Virus record (IMG/VR): IMGVR_UViG_3300028883_000295 | Location: 17,601 to 81,600 of that record | Direction: 5' to 3' (one strand) | Length of the DNA: 64,000 bases | DNA from: a virus | Part shown: one piece after another, positions 17,026 to 53,183 of the stretch | Numbering within the stretch: position 1 is the stretch's first letter | How the letters are laid out: every line of letters begins with the position of its first letter | Notes under the pieces: generated by a model | What the model was told of the DNA's origin: nothing | What the model saw: only the letters and a program-made list of their open reading frames with translations | Database searches by the model: none | Made by a program: the position numbers and the translations under genes

Positions 17026-17247
17026 TTATCTTCCTATTCGACCTCTTCCTTTGCTTGCTGCAGCCTTAGACTTTCTTTCCATTTCTTTATAATCTTCTTG
17101 TCTTTTCTTTGCTTCCCAGATAATTCTCTTCTCCAGAAAGCGTATGTCCATCGGTTTATCTCTTCTCAATTCACCAATTTCACTTGGAGTCCGATTGAGA
17201 ATCTTACATAGCTCATATTCCAGAGCACCAAAACCACCTTCAACGAA
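17026..17247 (-). CDS. Tail assembly chaperone, +1 frameshift extension
   Basis: This frame continues the chaperone after its stop. It has no start codon of its own but reads as plausible protein (EGGFGALEYELCKILNRTP, IGELRRDKPMDIRFLEKR) for ~73 residues to a TAA at 17026. Moving from the upstream frame needs a +1 (or -2) shift at AAA-TTT-CGT-TGA: slipping from TTT to TTC skips one base before the rare Arg codon CGT and the stop. Phage tail chaperones (lambda G/GT, Mu) use programmed shifts at this exact position of the gene. Confidence 0.7.
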   Translation of the reverse strand, partial: FVEGGFGALEYELCKILNRTPSEIGELRRDKPMDIRFLEKRIIWEAKKRQEDYKEMERKSKAAASKGRGRIGR

Positions 17248-17683
17248 ATTTATCTAACTCACCCTCAGAGAGTGGTCCTTGAATCGCTACCATCATCAAT
17301 TCATTAATGAAACTTATCAAAGTGTTTGTTGATGTTCTATTTCCCCAGAACTCTTCATTTAATTGCTTATTCAGAGTCAATTCAGAAGCAAGTTCAACAA
17401 ACTTCTTGATTGTAGTTTCACTGTTTGGTTTAGAGAGGAATATCATCATCTCACCCAATTGATTAGGTGTTGGTTTATGACAGAGTAGTTTCCTTTTAGT
17501 TGAAGGAGAGGATTTGAAGATTACTTCTACAGTATCTTCTTTATAATCCCTCTCAAGTATATCTCTTGTAGCAATCTGGTCTATGATTTCTTTTTTACTT
17601 ACTCGGTCTTTCTTCTCAATCTTTTCTTTGAATTCTTTCACCTTTTCTTGATGAATCTCAGCTTTTGTTTTTTCTTCAGGCAC
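17240..17683 (-). CDS. Tail assembly chaperone, upstream product
   Basis: 147 residues, charged N-terminus (EEKTKAEIHQEKVKEFKEKI) and a helical C-terminal part ending LSEGELDKFR. It starts with GTG behind GGAGGTGAT. It lies between the tail-tube genes and the tail fibres, and the continuation in the +1 frame (17026-17247) supports identity as the G component of a G/GT pair that coats the tape measure during tail assembly. Confidence 0.65.
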   Translation of the reverse strand: MPEEKTKAEIHQEKVKEFKEKIEKKDRVSKKEIIDQIATRDILERDYKEDTVEVIFKSSPSTKRKLLCHKPTPNQLGEMMIFLSKPNSETTIKKFVELASELTLNKQLNEEFWGNRTSTNTLISFINELMMVAIQGPLSEGELDKFR

Positions 17684-18791: not shown

Positions 18792-19190
18792 TTAATCCTC
18801 ATGATGGTACGTTCTACTGAAGACTAGTATCTTCCTATATATTCTTCTAGCATCATCATTATCATCATTATCTGAATCTTTTCTACATGCACCAGATGCA
18901 ATGAACATAGGGATTATTGTATCTGATAAATCATATGTCTGCTTTCTACTTCTAGAAATCACATCCACCTGAGTGACTAGTTCCTCTTTTCTCATTCTGG
19001 AACCTTTTGGTGAACTCTTATATCCAAGATATCCTGTATCTGAACCACCTACTTGAGATAGAATGATACATGGAAACTTCTCTAGTTCATCAGGCCATCC
19101 ATATCTAATCTCTGATTTAGAAACTGTATCTGTTATTGCAGAACAACTTTTTAGATATCCACCTAATTCACGAAGAGCATCTGAAGAAAT
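18792..19190 (-). CDS. Tail terminator/completion protein, probable AUU start
   Basis: The frame is open upstream of the first ATG (18995) and the extra 65 residues read as genuine protein (SDALRELGGYLKSC, GWPDELEKFPCIILSQVGG). The first plausible start is ATT at 19190, 3 nt after AGGTGAT, the same spacing used with ATG elsewhere here. That gives 132 residues. Position between the gp10-like protein and the tail tube, and length, fit a tail terminator (gpU-like). The acidic SDNDDNDD segment near the C-terminus is unusual. Confidence 0.6.
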   Translation of the reverse strand: MSSDALRELGGYLKSCSAITDTVSKSEIRYGWPDELEKFPCIILSQVGGSDTGYLGYKSSPKGSRMRKEELVTQVDVISRSRKQTYDLSDTIIPMFIASGACRKDSDNDDNDDARRIYRKILVFSRTYHHED

Positions 19191-19194
19191 GATA

Positions 19195-19713
19195 TCACCT
19201 CACCCTCAATGATATTCCAAATAAGCCTTGACTTATACTTTGTGTTATTTCCTGCAATATCTGTCTATGAACATATGGAGATTCAATTGCTCTAGTCAGA
19301 TAATTATATCCCTTTTGGACTGCAAATCTCTGTCTATACATTGGTGGATTCAATCCTTGCTGCTTACCTATAGGGAATGGTGGACTTGAGCCAGGTCTTT
19401 CAACCATAGCAGCTCCAATTGCTCCAAATTCAACAACTGCAGCATGTTTAGATTTACAGAATAATCTGAATTTATCTGCCATGCCTTGTTTACCCCATGT
19501 TGTTTTGCTTCTAATAGAATCTGTGGATACTCCAAGAGATGGCCATCTACCAGTTCCGACACTCATATCTAGATATTCAATAGCAGAATCTCTAACAATG
19601 TCACATGATTTATCCAATCCAGTATATGCAGATGAATGTATCTTCTGTACAATGTTGTCTATGTTCTGAAGAACTGTATTTAGATTACTAATCCTATAGT
19701 CTATAGTCATCAT
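19195..19713 (-). CDS. HK97 gp10-like tail completion protein
   Basis: 172 residues. SKHAAVVEFGAIGA is the diagnostic HAxxVExG motif of the gp10-like family, followed by FPIGKQ and helical C-terminus. The family sits at the head-tail interface and is required to finish the connector or tail. It overlaps the upstream connector gene by 4 nt, and the stop codon is part of the ribosome-binding site of the next gene. Confidence 0.75.
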   Translation of the reverse strand: MMTIDYRISNLNTVLQNIDNIVQKIHSSAYTGLDKSCDIVRDSAIEYLDMSVGTGRWPSLGVSTDSIRSKTTWGKQGMADKFRLFCKSKHAAVVEFGAIGAAMVERPGSSPPFPIGKQQGLNPPMYRQRFAVQKGYNYLTRAIESPYVHRQILQEITQSISQGLFGISLRVR

Positions 19714-33033: not shown

Positions 33034-33939
33034 AACTAAGCAGGTAATTGAAATATATTCCCCCTACATATCCCTCTTTATGTTTATATATAAGCCTGAA
33101 GATAAATATACCCCTGCCATCCCTGAATTAATATATATTTAATTAGATAAATCTAATCCTACATGCTCAACTACATATATATCTAGCCTTGAATATATAA
33201 ATGAATCTATATTCCCCCCTGTATAGAAGCCTGTATATAGAAGCCTAAGTATAGAGATAAGTATATAATTCTCTAAATATATAATTAATTTAATTCTATT
33301 TCCCTCTATATATCTTATACTATAATTCTATTTATATAAAGCCCGTAACATTAACCCCTCTATTTACTTTTATTCTATCTATTGAATATATTTATTTAAC
33401 GCTATCTTTGACCCCTAGACCTAGACCCCTACTTTTATCTAGTGTTATACATATATATCTCTATTGTTACATTTGTTTGAATACAGCATTTTTATTTAGA
33501 ACAGCCCTATAAATATATGCAGACCCCATAATTTGCATATACCCATTTTTTGAGAATACCCCGAAATTTTGCCTGAGGAAGCCCATATATAGCCCATAGA
33601 AGCAATATCTTTTCTTAGCCTTAGCGTTCTTAAGCCTAAGGTTCAGACCCCTCAGAATCGCTTATATGCAATCTTTGTTTACGTTTTGATTATTATCCCC
33701 CTCTATGAATATAATTGTTTTTGAAACAAATTGATTTATACCCCTAGACCCCTTATATCTATTCAGGTATTTATATATTAGAATTCCGATATTTATCAGA
33801 TTGAAAAAATATATAGAGGTATAAATTTAATTATACCCCTATACTTATTTTAGATATTGGTATTATTTTCCTTATTATCTGTCCCTCTTTATTCTGTGTA
33901 TAAAGTGTAATTATGTTATTCCTTGATTTATCTATTTTC
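33034..33939. other. Gene-free, C-skewed AT-rich region
   Basis: About 900 nt without a supported gene. The plus strand is dominated by A/T with recurring CCCCT and AAGCC(T/C) clusters while G is scarce, so C greatly exceeds G. Many short TATATA tracts. No long repeat is obvious. Together with the flanking TATA boxes, ncRNA and inverted repeat this is the best candidate for the replication origin or control region. Confidence 0.55.
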
Positions 33940-36750: not shown

Positions 36751-37167
36751 ATGGTCAAGAGAACAGTTGAAATAGATGATACACTAGAGGAAACAGTTGA
36801 GTGTGTAAAATATGACCTCAGACATGACTTTATTGATTATTTAAAGGAAAATCCAGAGATAGAGGACTTTGATGAATACTACAAAGATAGCGATATGATA
36901 CATGAAATAGTTGATTCTGCTGTCCCGATATATTACTCTGAAATTGATGGACTTTACTACCTCTATGGTGATGAATTTGAGGAGGCATATCAAAATGCAG
37001 GGATTGGAGATGGAACAGAGGATAATCACAGGCAAGTGACTATCTATTGCTATCTAGAGGAACAGGCATTTGACTACCTCAGGGAACTAGAGGATTTGTT
37101 TGATGAATTCGTTGATGAGAAAAATGGTATAAAAAAGTTGATTAAAGAACTAGAGGAGGAGAATTAA
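36751..37167 (+). CDS. Acidic early protein, unknown
   Basis: 138 residues, strongly acidic (pattern EIEDFDEYYKDSD, EDLFDEFVDE). Rich in Tyr and aromatic turns; no Cys motif. Charge could mimic DNA, but there is no direct evidence. Tightly coupled to its neighbours. Confidence 0.55.
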   Translation: MVKRTVEIDDTLEETVECVKYDLRHDFIDYLKENPEIEDFDEYYKDSDMIHEIVDSAVPIYYSEIDGLYYLYGDEFEEAYQNAGIGDGTEDNHRQVTIYCYLEEQAFDYLRELEDLFDEFVDEKNGIKKLIKELEEEN

Positions 37168-37755: not shown

Positions 37756-37825
37756 CCACATCCAGAGTGCATACTTATCGACAATTGCAGTAGAACATAT
37801 AGGCATATTCCAGAATCTTCATTTT

Positions 37826-37940
37826 AAGCCATTCTGAGCCACTTTAATGTTCACCCTTACTCTACCATTAGGAAGAAAAGATATTGCGTCAGCGTTGCTC
37901 TCTGTCAATCCTCAGGCAAATCTAGAGGGTATCCTAGACC
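37826..37940. repeat. Four-copy structured intergenic element, copy C
   Basis: Close to copy D: AGCCATTCTGAG, ACCATTAG, AAAAGATATTGC, CTCTCTGTCAATCCTCAG and AGAGGGTATCCT. TCTAGAGG..CCTAGA forms the terminal hairpin. It lies just ahead of the T-run that ends the minus operon. Confidence 0.7.
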
Positions 37941-42041: not shown

Positions 42042-42062
42042 TAGAATAAGGGGTGATTTAAT

Positions 42063-42647
42063 ATAACTAAAGTATATTTCACAGCAGATACTCACTTCAA
42101 TCATGCAAACATCATTGCATACACAAACAGACCATATGCTAAAAAGGATAGGGATTATTTCATCCTAGATGATGGAAATGTAGTGTGGAAATCAGATAAA
42201 GTCAAATTTGATAGGTGCAGATATATGAATGAGGATCTGATTGAGAAGTGGAACTCTGTTGTGGAACCTGAAGATGTTGTTTATCATCTAGGTGATTTTG
42301 GATTTCTCAACTCCAAAGAATATGATGAGTTTCTTAATAGATTGAATGGAAGAATTGTTTTGTTCAGTGGAAATCATGACAAGCAGAATAAGATAAAGGG
42401 TTATCTTGAGATGGCTATGATGGAATTTGGAAGCAAGAAGGTATTTGCACAGCATACACCACCTCAGATAATTCCTGAATGTGATTTCTGCATATGTGGG
42501 CATGTTCATGATAAGTGGAAACATAAAGTCTACAGGAAGCAACCAAATATACCAATCATCAATGTTGGGGTGGATGTTTGGAATCATCAACCTGTATCAA
42601 CATTGAGCTTGTTGAAATATTATAATGAAATATTAAAGGAGATGTGA
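42063..42647 (+). CDS. Metallophosphoesterase, probable AUA start
   Basis: All calcineurin-like motifs are present: FTADTHFNH (D9xH11), HLGDFGF (Asp78), SGNHD (103-106) and CGHVHD (146-149). The first of these lies upstream of any ATG/GTG/TTG: the frame continues back to ATA 42063, 5 nt after GGGGTGAT, giving 194 residues beginning with the family-typical KVYFTADTHF. Starting from the GTG-region ATG at 42183 would delete the DxH motif. Substrate unknown (nucleotide or phosphodiester). Confidence 0.8.
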   Translation: MTKVYFTADTHFNHANIIAYTNRPYAKKDRDYFILDDGNVVWKSDKVKFDRCRYMNEDLIEKWNSVVEPEDVVYHLGDFGFLNSKEYDEFLNRLNGRIVLFSGNHDKQNKIKGYLEMAMMEFGSKKVFAQHTPPQIIPECDFCICGHVHDKWKHKVYRKQPNIPIINVGVDVWNHQPVSTLSLLKYYNEILKEM

Positions 42648-48958: not shown

Positions 48959-50020
48959 ATGTGGATAGAGGAACTCTTCTATGACTCGATGGGAACAGCC
49001 AGAACCAGAATCCTTAGCGATTCAGGCAAGGAATACATCACCAACATCCGAAAGGATTGGATATCTTGGTGCTCATGTCCTAGTTGGATATACAACAAAC
49101 TCCCCTGCAAGCACATAAAGTTCCTGTATTCAAAATTGGAGAAAGAAAAAATGGTTGATAAATCAGATAAATTAGTTAGGATTCCAACTGAGAGTAAGAT
49201 AATTGATGATATGATTGGAGGAGGATTCCCCCAGAAGTTAATCACTGCTATCTTTGCTCCACCTGCAACAGGAAAGAGTTGGTTAGCCTATCAGGCAGGT
49301 GTGAGTAACATTAAGACTACAGGTCAGGAGACTCTACTCATAGATACAGAAGGAATCACTAGAGAGGATTTAGATAACATCCTCACAAAACTATCTAAGA
49401 GATATGATGCAGATGCTAAGACAGTAAAGAAGAAGTTTAAGATGATTAAGACATATGATGATCCTAATGCTATGTCGATTCAGAAGCTACTCATGATGTT
49501 TGGATTCTTTGTGAAGCTAGAGTTAAGTGAGAAAGGTAAATATAAAGTAACATTCCAGCCATATGACCAGACACTTAAGGTGAATGAGTTAGAGAACATC
49601 TCTATGATTATCATAGACTCTCTAACTAAACCTATCAAGGACTCTATTGGAAGTGAGACAGCAAACCTACCTGCGAGAGCTCAGATAGTAGAGAGAATGT
49701 TCGGGAAGCTCTATCAGATAGCAGAGTTATATAACATTTCAGTGATTGTGAATCATCATGCATCTGTTCCACCACCAGTGGGGTATGTTAAAGCACCTTA
49801 TGCATATGGGGGTAATCCGATCTACTATAACTCTAAGTATATTCTAGAACTCTTTGACTCTACTAAAGCAGAGAGAGATATCAAGTGTGTGGAGAACAAG
49901 AAGAAGACATGGGACCTTGAAGCCAGAAGAATCAGATTGGTTAGAAGACCAGATGAACAACCCACTGGAGAGAAGGTTCCTATCAGACTAAAGAAAGATA
50001 TTGGATTCGTGGATGAATGA
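48959..50020 (+). CDS. SWIM zinc finger fused to RadA/RadB-type recombinase
   Basis: 353 residues. Residues 34-56 carry a SWIM motif: CSC at 38-40 and CKH at 50-52. Residues ~70-330 are a RecA-fold core: APPATGKSW (Walker A, 100-108), ETLLIDTEG, ISMIIIDS (Walker B, 214-221), VIVNHHAS (sensor). No N-terminal helix-hairpin-helix, as in RadB. Likely a recombination mediator or replication-linked ATPase; the SWIM finger probably adds DNA or protein binding. Overlaps the next gene by 4 nt. Confidence 0.75.
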   Translation: MWIEELFYDSMGTARTRILSDSGKEYITNIRKDWISWCSCPSWIYNKLPCKHIKFLYSKLEKEKMVDKSDKLVRIPTESKIIDDMIGGGFPQKLITAIFAPPATGKSWLAYQAGVSNIKTTGQETLLIDTEGITREDLDNILTKLSKRYDADAKTVKKKFKMIKTYDDPNAMSIQKLLMMFGFFVKLELSEKGKYKVTFQPYDQTLKVNELENISMIIIDSLTKPIKDSIGSETANLPARAQIVERMFGKLYQIAELYNISVIVNHHASVPPPVGYVKAPYAYGGNPIYYNSKYILELFDSTKAERDIKCVENKKKTWDLEARRIRLVRRPDEQPTGEKVPIRLKKDIGFVDE

Positions 50021-50652
50021 TGAATAAGAAATACATTCTTGGCAAGACAATGATTGGAAGCCATATCTGGAAGATGAACACACCAAAATCAGATGAGGAT
50101 TACTTTAAAGTGTATATGGACACTACAGAAGATGTATTCAGAGGAACTGCTAAATACAAATCATATTTCACACAGGACAATGGAGTGGATGTTCATTCAC
50201 ATGAGATAAAGAAAGTCATTGAGCAGATTCTGAAAGGCAACATCAACTTCATCATAGGAATCACATCATCAATTATTATAGAAACAACAAAACACTTTGA
50301 TGAGCTGAGACATCTTACATTCAGAAATCTCTCCAAGAATACCTATCATTCAATTCATGGAATGAGTAAACACAACTATCAGAAATATATTATAGAGAAA
50401 GAAGACACATCAGAAAGGAAATGCAATCAAATACTCAGAGCATTAGAGTTTGGAATTACTTTATTGAAATACAGGAAGATAGAATACAAGCCATTTACAG
50501 ATGGAACTCCAGAATTGATTCTCAAGAAGATGGATGAATTAGATAAGGCATATGAGAAATCAACTATTCCAGAGAAGCCGAATGAAGATGAATTAAGAGA
50601 TTATCTCTGTAAGATGAGGAAATGGAATTGGTGGGATAATCTAGAGGTTTAA
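50017..50652 (+). CDS. RlaP-type nucleotidyltransferase
   Basis: 211 residues. MIGSHIWKMNTPKSDEDYFK contains the GSH...SDxDY signature of the pol-beta-superfamily RlaP family often encoded by phages. Target unknown (RNA repair and tRNA end modification are proposed for relatives). Confidence 0.65.
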   Translation: MMNKKYILGKTMIGSHIWKMNTPKSDEDYFKVYMDTTEDVFRGTAKYKSYFTQDNGVDVHSHEIKKVIEQILKGNINFIIGITSSIIIETTKHFDELRHLTFRNLSKNTYHSIHGMSKHNYQKYIIEKEDTSERKCNQILRALEFGITLLKYRKIEYKPFTDGTPELILKKMDELDKAYEKSTIPEKPNEDELRDYLCKMRKWNWWDNLEV

Positions 50653-50940
50653 ATGAGAACAGATAAGTATTTGTGGGATAAAGTAGTTATGAATATCTAC
50701 AGGCAGATGTTCAAGGAAGCAGAGCCTTCAGCAGATTTTGATGAATTGATTGAAATCGGTGAAGCAAAGCAGGATAATTTCTTCATGAATTACTATCTTC
50801 ATCAAGATAGACAACAGGAAATTATAGATGAATGGTGCAAGAAATATAAATGTAGCAAATTGGAAGAGAGAGCAATAAATACAGAAGTGAATTTAGGATG
50901 TGCACCAAATACTGTTAGGAGAGAAGATAATGAAACCTAA
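50653..50940 (+). CDS. Small protein, unknown
   Basis: 95 residues, helical, acidic; no motif beyond a CKKYKCSK stretch. Starts right after the previous stop. Confidence 0.45.
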   Translation: MRTDKYLWDKVVMNIYRQMFKEAEPSADFDELIEIGEAKQDNFFMNYYLHQDRQQEIIDEWCKKYKCSKLEERAINTEVNLGCAPNTVRREDNET

Positions 50941-51109
50941 ACCTATGCCACATTTTGATGAGATACACATAGAATTCTATGATGTGGATGAAATGAATCT
51001 TTGGCTGGATAATGCTAAAGAAGGATTGATAGCAGAATTACAAGAAGGATGCTTAGATGAAGAGCCTAAAGAGCATATGAGGAAGACAGTAGAGAAGTGG
51101 TTATCTTAG
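50930..51109 (+). CDS. 59-residue acidic protein, unknown
   Basis: Start at ATG 50930 behind TAGGAGAG. HFDEIHIEFYDVDEMNLWLD then helical. Its stop abuts the eS17-like gene (TAGATG). Confidence 0.45.
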   Translation: MKPKPMPHFDEIHIEFYDVDEMNLWLDNAKEGLIAELQEGCLDEEPKEHMRKTVEKWLS

Positions 51110-51391
51110 ATGGCAGTTAGGCAGTTCTATATCAAAAGGATATGCAATGAAATCATGAAGAAGTTTCCTGAAATGGTAACAGAAGACTTTGAATTGAACA
51201 AGCAATTAGTTAATGAAATTACAGATGTTCAATCTAAGAAGATAAGAAATAGAATAGCAGGTATGTTGGTTTGCTACAAGAAGAATGAGAATAAGGTGTT
51301 TATCCCACCTAAGACTGGAAAGCCTCGAAAGAAGAAGGGCTGGAAAAAGAAGGAGAAGAATCGTTTAAGAAGAAGGAGAAGAAATAAATGA
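51110..51391 (+). CDS. Ribosomal protein eS17 homologue with basic extension
   Basis: 93 residues. Residues 3-58 follow archaeal/eukaryotic eS17 closely: VRQFYIKRICNEIMKKFPE, TEDFELNKQLVNEI, SKKIRNRIAGMLV. Known eS17 has IRQxFIKRxA, TxDFxxNKKxVxEV and SKxLRNRIAGYVT at matching positions. A further ~30 residues are almost purely Lys/Arg (KPRKKKGWKKKEKN). A virus-coded copy could enter the 30S subunit of the infected cell. Start abuts the previous stop. Confidence 0.8.
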   Translation: MAVRQFYIKRICNEIMKKFPEMVTEDFELNKQLVNEITDVQSKKIRNRIAGMLVCYKKNENKVFIPPKTGKPRKKKGWKKKEKNRLRRRRRNK

Positions 51392-51615
51392 AGAGAGAGG
51401 CTGAAGAGAATGGATATGGTAAATATCGGGTGCTTAATGTAGGCAAGAGAAAGAAACCAACTACCATTAAATACTATGTCACGTGTGGGGAGTGTGGAGA
51501 GATGGTATCATTCACCAGTTCACCAACCATGAGAGAAAAGTTCATGAAGAACACGTATATGCCTGTCTGTCCTCATTGTGGATGCATAATCAGCAAAAAA
51601 GAGAGAAATCGCTGA
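51388..51615 (+). CDS. Zinc-ribbon protein
   Basis: 75 residues, basic; CGEC and CPHCGC knuckles about 30 residues apart. ATGA overlap with the eS17 gene, hence coupled. Its last bases (AATCGCTGAGGATT) match the end block of the repeat element in inverted orientation. Confidence 0.5.
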   Translation: MKREAEENGYGKYRVLNVGKRKKPTTIKYYVTCGECGEMVSFTSSPTMREKFMKNTYMPVCPHCGCIISKKERNR

Positions 51616-51625
51616 GGATTGATTC

Positions 51626-51741
51626 TTAGCCATTCTGAGAGGTTTAGATGTTAGGAGGTATAATACCATTAGCAGAAAAAGATATTGCCTTAGAGGGCCA
51701 CTTCTGCTAATCCTCGAGCAAAATTAGAGGGTATCCTCGAC
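51626..51741. repeat. Four-copy structured intergenic element, copy D
   Basis: Between two plus-strand genes. Shares with copy C AGCCATTCTGAG, TACCATTAG, AAAAGATATTGC, CTGnnAATCCTC and TAGAGGGTATCCT. Here GCC-TTAGAG-GGC and GAGG-GTAT-CCTC are perfect small stems where copy C has different bases. Confidence 0.7.
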
Positions 51742-51755
51742 TGGAAGTGTGAAAT

Positions 51756-51962
51756 ATGAAGATTGGAGATAAAATGAAGGTTCTAGGCTTTGATTGTGGA
51801 GCCAGAGCATACCATAAATTCAATGTGATGGGCATCAGAATCGGAAGCATTCTAGTTCTAGAGGCAGTTCAGCCTCATGGTCCATATACATTTAGAATGA
51901 AAGGAATGAAGTTAACAATAGGTAGAGGTTTGCTTGAGAAATTAGAATATGAGGTGATTTGA
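51756..51962 (+). CDS. FeoA-like SH3 domain protein
   Basis: 68 residues. HKFNVMGIRIGSILVLEAVQ followed by GPYTFRMKGMKLTIGRGLLE fits the FeoA/IRTR SH3-like domain (xxMGIxxGSxIxV...MxGxxxxIGRxLAxxI). In cells this domain modulates FeoB iron uptake or DtxR regulators. ATG 51774, 3 nt after GGAGAT, is an alternative start. Confidence 0.55.
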   Translation: MKIGDKMKVLGFDCGARAYHKFNVMGIRIGSILVLEAVQPHGPYTFRMKGMKLTIGRGLLEKLEYEVI

Positions 51963-52613
51963 ATGATAATTATTGATGATAGAAAGGAAACAGATACATA
52001 TGAAGGTCTCAAGAAGAGAGGCATTCTAGATGCAGAGGTTCAAAGAATAGAGGTTGCAGATGTGCTTCTGGATGATGGTGTTGCAGTAGAGAGAAAGGGA
52101 CATGACTTGTTTGGATCTCTAACTACTGGAAGAATCTGGGAACAGTTGAATGGACTTAATGAATATGAGCATCCAATCCTCTGCATAGTTAATGAGAATA
52201 TCTGGAGAGATATGTATTACATCAGAAGCAACTGGATACATAAGTCCTATCAAGGATTCCTAACTACTCTGGCACTGAGATATCCAAAGCTAAAGGTGTT
52301 TCAGTTCGGGTGCATGGAAGACTATCTTGATTTCATTGTTGCACTGGATAAGAAAATACATAAGGAAGGTAAATCTACAAGACCAACACCGATTCATCGA
52401 AAGACTAAGAAGATTCAGGTGAGAATGGAAGACTGTCTAGCTATGGCAGATGGGATTTCTATAGGCAAGGCAAAGATTCCACTTAAGAAATACAATACTG
52501 TATATGATGTAGCTAGCCAACCACTTAAGGAGTTAGAGAAGATGGATGGCTATGGTAAGAAATTAGCAAAGAATCTATATGATTTATTGCATGGTCAATA
52601 TAAGGAGGAATAA
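51963..52613 (+). CDS. XPF/ERCC4-type nuclease with HhH
   Basis: 216 residues. IIIDDRKE (Asp5-Asp6) and VAVERKGHDLF (Glu43-Arg44-Lys45, Asp48) form the ERCC4 GDxnERKxxxD active site. The last ~50 residues (ISIGKAKIPLKKY, LEKMDGYGKKLAKNLY) are a helix-hairpin-helix. Such enzymes cut branched or flap DNA; Hef/Mus81-like role at stalled or recombining forks is likely. GAGGTGAT ahead of the ATG. Confidence 0.8.
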   Translation: MIIIDDRKETDTYEGLKKRGILDAEVQRIEVADVLLDDGVAVERKGHDLFGSLTTGRIWEQLNGLNEYEHPILCIVNENIWRDMYYIRSNWIHKSYQGFLTTLALRYPKLKVFQFGCMEDYLDFIVALDKKIHKEGKSTRPTPIHRKTKKIQVRMEDCLAMADGISIGKAKIPLKKYNTVYDVASQPLKELEKMDGYGKKLAKNLYDLLHGQYKEE

Positions 52614-52898: not shown

Positions 52899-53183
52899 AT
52901 TACTAGAAAGCATAGAGATATAAATGAATTCAGAGAGGATGCTAAGGAATTCATATCAAATCCAATTGGGAGAACAAAAGAGGGTGTGGAAGTTCATTAT
53001 CTAGGACACAAAGATTTCTATTTAACTATAAGTGATGGAAGCAGTGGAAATATTCTAGTGGAATTAAGATACGGAATAGAAAATGATTCTTTATGTGTAT
53101 ATGGACACTTTGATAATTCATTAAAGGAAGAAGTATATGATTTGATACAGGAATTAAAAGATATTCTACAGGAAGGTGATTAG
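52899..53183 (+). CDS. Small protein, probable AUU start
   Basis: The frame is open from the GGTGAT-TAA-ATT at 52899; the first standard start is GTG 52986, which has no ribosome-binding site. The added 29 residues (TRKHRDINEFREDAKEFIS) read like protein and the spacing equals that of GGTGAT-TAA-GTG at 36580. 94 residues, with a beta core (DFYLTISDGSSGNILVELRY). Family unknown. Confidence 0.55.
   Translation: MTRKHRDINEFREDAKEFISNPIGRTKEGVEVHYLGHKDFYLTISDGSSGNILVELRYGIENDSLCVYGHFDNSLKEEVYDLIQELKDILQEGD

Follow-up and report, generated by a model that had tools for sequence, protein, structure and literature searches.

Ribosomal proteins encoded by viruses are known mostly from phages; one of these proteins, bS21, belongs to the bacterial 30S subunit, on the side from which mRNA exits. 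For archaeal viruses the literature searched holds only two cases, eL21 in the Hafunaviridae, which are haloarchaeal tailed viruses (PMC8651126), and bL19 in Kunpengvirus, a virus of Bathyarchaeia (PMC10848311). The protein considered here, eS17, is located with uS2 where the mRNA exit chamber of the archaeal ribosome ends, and the extension of the yeast protein contacts the mRNA (PMC7531240, PMC7005279). No S17 is mentioned in the main text of a survey of viral ribosomal proteins (PMC6375957), no viral eS17 was found in PHROGs, in BFVD or in the phage collection searched, and no report of one was met in the open literature searched, subscription-only papers being outside reach. An eS17 in a virus is thus likely to be unreported; among small-subunit proteins specific to archaea and eukaryotes, it would be the first met in an archaeal virus.

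The gene was found in a stretch of 64,000 nt (the window) taken from the 81.6-kb IMG/VR record IMGVR_UViG_3300028883_000295 (G000). A sequence-only reading of the window had called the gene product an eS17 homologue and placed that protein near the mRNA path, a placement that agrees with the literature cited above.

An eS17 homologue in a tailed-virus genome

The contig that carries the eS17 gene also encodes an HK97 major capsid protein, a portal, a maturation protease, a large terminase subunit (TerL) and a tape measure protein, which identify the genome as that of a tailed virus. A DNA polymerase (PolB), a primase-like protein, a RecA/Rad51-like ATPase, an ERCC4 nuclease and an exonuclease are encoded in the same record. 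A search of 50,697 phage records with the polymerase gave only three matches, two from one haloarchaeal virus and the third from a marine virus. Relatives were gathered through the terminase, the RecA-like protein and PolB, and their whole records were then searched with the Pfam family PF00833. The eS17 gene is carried by the 98% identical G001 (IMGVR_UViG_3300028920_000694, 115 kb) and by both of the other large relatives, G004 (IMGVR_UViG_3300028920_000038, 138 kb) and G005 (IMGVR_UViG_3300027792_000307, 155 kb), so that three lineages (G000/G001, G004 and G005) are represented, between which TerL is about 50% identical. The PF00833 search of the remaining TerL relatives gave no match, but these contigs are short or partial (4-54 kb) and the absence is uninformative; a PolB search for further eS17-bearing relatives returned distant contigs only. 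The eS17 gene is conserved in a lineage of large, uncultivated and unclassified caudoviruses, which are probably archaeal.

The product of the open reading frame at 51110-51391 (plus strand), MAVRQFYIKRICNEIMKKFPEMVTEDFELNKQLVNEITDVQSKKIRNRIAGMLVCYKKNENKVFIPPKTGKPRKKKGWKKKEKNRLRRRRRNK, is a true homologue of eS17, as its sequence, its profile matches and its predicted fold all show. Residues 3-56 match PF00833, Ribosomal_S17e (E 1.8e-10, 41.2 bits against a cut-off of 22.8), and the match to the NCBIfam equivalog NF002242, "30S ribosomal protein S17e", covers residues 1-61 (E 1.7e-21, 75.6 bits against a cut-off of 72). Every match listed by phmmer against the PDB is an eS17, the best being that of the Pyrococcus abyssi 30S subunit (6sw9_S, E 1.3e-13), and the identity to Pyrococcus eS17 is 52% over 54 aa. 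An AF2 model reaches a pLDDT of about 91-93 for residues 11-50; it superposes on the eS17 of P. abyssi, T. kodakarensis and S. solfataricus with an rmsd of 0.6-0.8 Å over 55-57 aa, and the best Foldseek matches of the model are all eS17 chains, with the archaeal ones ahead. Because the alignment of 40 eS17 sequences given to AF2 included cellular ones, the predicted fold does not count as evidence separate from the sequence homology. The earlier call, which rested on the motifs VRQFYIKR, TEDFELNK and SKKIRNRIAG, held: the motifs are present, and profile, sequence and fold searches return eS17 first. The absence of an eS17 match, or an unrelated basic protein that matched better, would have refuted it, and nothing else was significant. 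In a separate scan of IMG/VR for KxIRNRIAG, the other matches were rejected as eS17, being an unrelated domain or short ORFs.

The homologues in G004 and G005 are also eS17; both exceed the Pfam cut-off and fall below that of the NCBIfam equivalog (62.5 and 55.8 bits, respectively, against 72). Twelve positions are nearly invariant in eS17, namely K9, D26, F27, E28, N30, K31, K43, R46, N47, A50, G51 and Y52. The window copy retains all of them except Y52, which is replaced by M, and the G005 copy all except E28 and Y52; the G004 copy retains only K9, F27, E28, N30, K43, N47, G51 and Y52, with D26S, R46I and A50S among its changes. All three lineages have I15, F19 and V54 at positions where 85-95% of cellular eS17 have L, Y and T. 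Across columns at least 85% conserved in cells, 67% of the viral alignment cells match, against 31% elsewhere, a preferential retention that would be expected if the ribosome-facing surface had been kept.

Behind the core, the window copy ends in a tail (residues 57-93) with 20 K/R and 2 D/E, a net charge of +18, which is modelled as a low-confidence linker (about 61-77) followed by a predicted helix (78-91). Among the 78 cellular archaeal eS17 proteins gathered, the net charge after residue 56 has a median of +1 and a maximum of +3. The G005 tail is likewise basic (33 residues, 11 K/R and 5 D/E). That of G004 is short, with 6 K/R and 1 D/E, which indicates that the tail is not essential to the viral family. 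The tail is real, and it varies between viral lineages. Eukaryotic eS17 is about 120-145 aa long and has a C-terminal extension of its own, as seen in the PDB matches; residues 2-86 of the G005 protein align with eukaryotic eS17 and reach into this extension, although the match is partly charge-rich and calls for caution. The claim of a Lys/Arg-rich extension thus held, while its supposed absence from cellular forms is true of the archaeal forms sampled and not of eukaryotes.

The host is likely to be archaeal, an inference from sequence alone, and its phylum is unresolved. The pointers are eS17 itself, the primase-like and ERCC4 proteins, and the haloviral homologues of PolB and of the gene two places upstream of eS17, whose product has relatives in many tailed viruses of haloarchaea. 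A TerL search of 732 archaeal genomes from three phyla gave one close match, in a Thermoplasmatota bin. The contig concerned is 4.1 kb long and has a GC content of 0.33 against 0.48, so that it is weak evidence of host and does not settle the phylum.

Neither the window nor the portions of its relatives that were sampled contain tRNA genes, and there is therefore no sign of a wider translation cassette. Elsewhere in the genome, an acidic 138-aa protein (36751-37167, plus strand) weakly resembles Ocr, a DNA mimic, with a score below the cut-off (E 0.0023), and is possibly an anti-restriction protein. Just upstream of the window (G000:C1:1-17600, L150) lies a cassette of ORFs that resembles sugar metabolism, judged by eye without a profile search; they comprise sialic-acid-synthase-like, carbamoyltransferase-like and two epimerase-like frames, a kinase, a sugar isomerase, a dehydrogenase and a glycosyltransferase.

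The eS17 locus and its history

The eS17 gene occupies a slot between the RecA/Rad51-SWIM and ERCC4 genes in all three lineages (Table 1). Its stop codon overlaps the start of a zinc-ribbon gene in the sequence ATGA (51388-51391), and an ATGA overlap with a zinc-finger or zinc-ribbon gene recurs in G004 and G005. In archaea, 4-nt overlaps of this kind often couple the translation of subunits of one complex (PMC10666635). The RlaP-like gene further upstream is missing at that place in the 98% identical G001, which points to a recent gain or loss.

Table 1. Positions of the eS17 gene, its neighbours and frames with unusual apparent starts in the window
Feature	Position	Strand	Basis
Frame with apparent ATA start	17029-17253	-	Shine-Dalgarno spacing
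Frame with apparent ATC/ATT start, of similar look	18795-19199	-	Shine-Dalgarno motif
Phosphoesterase frame, apparent ATA start	42057-42644	+	Shine-Dalgarno spacing
RecA/Rad51-like ATPase carrying a SWIM zinc finger; in synteny upstream of eS17 in each of the three lineages	48959-50020	+	Profile, synteny
RlaP-like RNA-repair nucleotidyltransferase; adjoins the RecA-like gene	50017-50652	+	Profile
phrog_13954 protein; Hafunaviridae and other haloarchaeal tailed viruses have homologues	50653-50940	+	Homology
Small ORF; TAG stop abuts the eS17 ATG (TAGATG)	50930-51109	+	Sequence
Viral eS17, 93 aa, ATG start, TGA stop; core = residues 1-58	51110-51391	+	Sequence, profiles, PDB, fold
Lys/Arg-rich C-terminal extension of eS17, residues 57-93	51278-51388	+	Composition, AF2 model
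Zinc-ribbon protein; 4-nt overlap with the eS17 stop	51388-51615	+	Sequence, profile
FeoA-domain protein; downstream, adjacent in G004, elsewhere in G005	51756-51962	+	Synteny
ERCC4-type nuclease; in synteny downstream of eS17 in each of the three lineages	51963-52613	+	Profile, synteny
Frame with apparent ATT start, of similar look	52899-53180	+	Shine-Dalgarno motif

The coupling to a zinc-ribbon gene had been claimed by the sequence-only reading and held. The same reading had the eS17 gene preceded by the neighbourhood of a "copy D", which failed, the probable repeat (51619-51741) lying downstream of the zinc-ribbon gene. This is a non-coding element of about 125 nt, present there and at 37818-37940 on the plus strand and at about 33575-33663 on the minus strand, with the shared blocks TAGCCATTCTGAG, AGAAAAGATATTGC and AATCCTC..GCAAA...TAGAGGGTATCC; it has no match in Rfam. 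These repeats are likely to be what had been called copies. Compared with the 98% identical relative, the repeat behind the eS17/zinc operon has a segment of about 20 nt exchanged, reading CCTTAGAGGGCCACTTCTGCTA against CGTCAGCGTTGCTTATATGCA.

The preservation of synteny in three diverged lineages of one virus group excludes a chimeric contig as the source of the gene. Between G000 and G001 the eS17 genes differ by one nonsynonymous and three synonymous changes (dN/dS about 0.07, p 0.02), which shows purifying selection. The identity between lineages is only 34-40%, which argues for long residence in viruses, and the shared I15, F19 and V54 fit one old capture. A phylogenetic tree of 73 columns left the viral proteins unplaced, so that a single origin is neither shown nor excluded; the columns are few, and the cellular sampling was biased to Thermococcus by the search patterns. 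Nesting within one host clade, proposed earlier as a check on the call, was accordingly not found in this unresolved tree. Haloarchaeal megaplasmid eS17 genes were considered as a closer source and rejected, being ordinary eS17 with up to 47% identity. Among the cellular sequences, four archaeal bins (L077, L078, L079 and L080, labelled Methanomicrobia/Thermococci) have in common a divergent eS17 with NREF and NRVVGYV and without the otherwise common DFEHNKK motif.

Apparent unusual start codons

Cellular full-length eS17 nearly always begins MG(N/K)(I/V)(R/K). The G005 eS17 frame contains no ATG, GTG or TTG in 98 codons, and the sole fitting start is the ATA in ATA-GGA-AAC-ATA-AAA (MGNIK), 9 nt behind GGAGG. 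The apparent G004 start reads ATA-AGT-AGA-GTA-AGA-CAA (MSRVRQ), 9 nt behind GGAG, and the ERCC4 gene of the same virus (L107:10733-11359) has ATA where its window homologue has ATG. This ERCC4 gene and the two window frames with an apparent ATA start have no usable standard start near the 5' end and have a Shine-Dalgarno motif at a fitting distance. In a genome-wide test, ATA codons behind Shine-Dalgarno motifs were enriched no more than about 2-fold in G004 and not clearly in the window; the case for AUA starts therefore rests on individual genes, a minority of the total.

Possible roles of a viral eS17

The best reading of these observations, though one that is as likely to be wrong as right, is that the protein is incorporated into host 30S subunits to tune initiation. 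Viral eS17 would enter newly made host subunits, where its basic tail would alter contacts in the exit chamber to the advantage of viral messages, with the product of the coupled zinc-finger gene as a putative partner in the same task. Window ATGs heading long frames are enriched 3.7-fold at 4-10 nt behind Shine-Dalgarno-like motifs, and viral mRNAs therefore probably use the exit chamber. This enrichment supports tuning, together with the identity of the protein, the conservation of its locus, purifying selection, the preferential retention of cell-conserved columns, the exit-chamber site of eS17 and the alignment of the G005 tail with the eukaryotic extension. Incorporation, timing and preference are all inferred and not shown, and the suggestion of the sequence-only reading that host ribosomes are tuned toward viral mRNAs stays an inference, incorporation included. 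Several points weigh against it. There is no experiment and no host, and the genes around eS17 serve recombination and replication, which leaves a DNA- or RNA-binding role possible. The G004 protein departs at near-invariant positions and has a short tail, and L15, Y19 and T54 are lost in all lineages. The G004 and G005 copies, moreover, score below the equivalog cut-off.

The main rival, which remains possible, is extra-ribosomal repurposing, whereby the eS17 fold and its basic tail serve as an RNA- or DNA-binding replication or recombination protein with a zinc-finger partner. It draws support from the neighbouring RecA/Rad51, ERCC4 nuclease, exonuclease, primase and PolB genes, from the zinc-finger nature of the coupled protein, from the unusually basic tail and from the loss of some near-invariant residues in G004. 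Against it, the window copy still satisfies the NCBIfam equivalog, whose cut-off was set for ribosomal eS17; the conserved columns of eS17 are retained more often than the rest; and location is weak evidence because viral ribosomal-protein genes have no fixed neighbourhood. Host shut-off is an unlikely alternative: viral eS17 would displace the host protein to give subunits that perform poorly on host mRNA, or would titrate an assembly factor, and the benefit would come from inhibition and not from a preference for viral mRNA. The same evidence of identity serves this scenario, as does the substitution of the cell-conserved T54, Y19 and L15 in all three lineages, but viral mRNAs depend on the same ribosomes and no evidence separates inhibition from tuning. 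That the gene is a functionless, recently captured passenger can be all but ruled out. It is small, and viruses sometimes capture ribosomal genes; however, one locus has been kept across lineages whose TerL is only about 50% identical, the gene is under purifying selection, and an identity of at most about 40% between viral copies speaks for old residence.

A bolder version of the tuning hypothesis, which must be regarded as very unlikely, is that eS17 and its zinc partner create a virus-specialised 30S subunit that accepts Shine-Dalgarno-led AUA, AUU and AUC starts, the basic tail in the Shine-Dalgarno exit chamber causing viral starts to be read preferentially after infection. That AUA-type starts depend on viral eS17 is pure hypothesis; the known discriminator of start codons is aIF1, not eS17.

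Returning to incorporation and tuning, the site at issue is where the ribosome meets the 5' side of the mRNA, and the gene has been kept in diverged viruses. If the protein is incorporated, viruses may swap in a part of the host's protein-making machine, and it becomes testable whether archaeal viruses specialise ribosomes for their own messages.

In comparison with cellular archaeal eS17 (PF00833/NF002242; P. abyssi 6sw9/7zhg chain S), the window copy has the same core fold, length and motifs, including the N-terminal M-x-V-R-Q...IKR and N-R-I-A-G, and differs in being virus-encoded, in its highly basic tail of about 35 residues and in its coupling to a zinc-ribbon gene; L15I, Y19F and T54V further set all three viral lineages apart. 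Eukaryotic eS17, like the viral copies, has an extension after the same core, into which the G005 copy aligns, but the viral proteins total only 72-93 aa and their tails are shorter, more basic and variable between lineages. The eL21 of the Hafunaviridae is another ribosomal protein of archaeal/eukaryotic type encoded by archaeal tailed viruses, yet it is a large-subunit protein near 5S rRNA and belongs to another virus group. The phrog_13954 neighbour is common to the eS17 locus and to HRTV-21, where no eL21 is annotated beside it. The bL19 of Kunpengvirus is likewise a ribosomal protein in an archaeal virus, and differs as a bacterial-type protein of the large subunit. The closest functional analogue is the bS21 of phages (PMC6375957, PMC9723584), which is also a small-subunit protein, although it is unrelated to eS17 and its hosts are bacteria.
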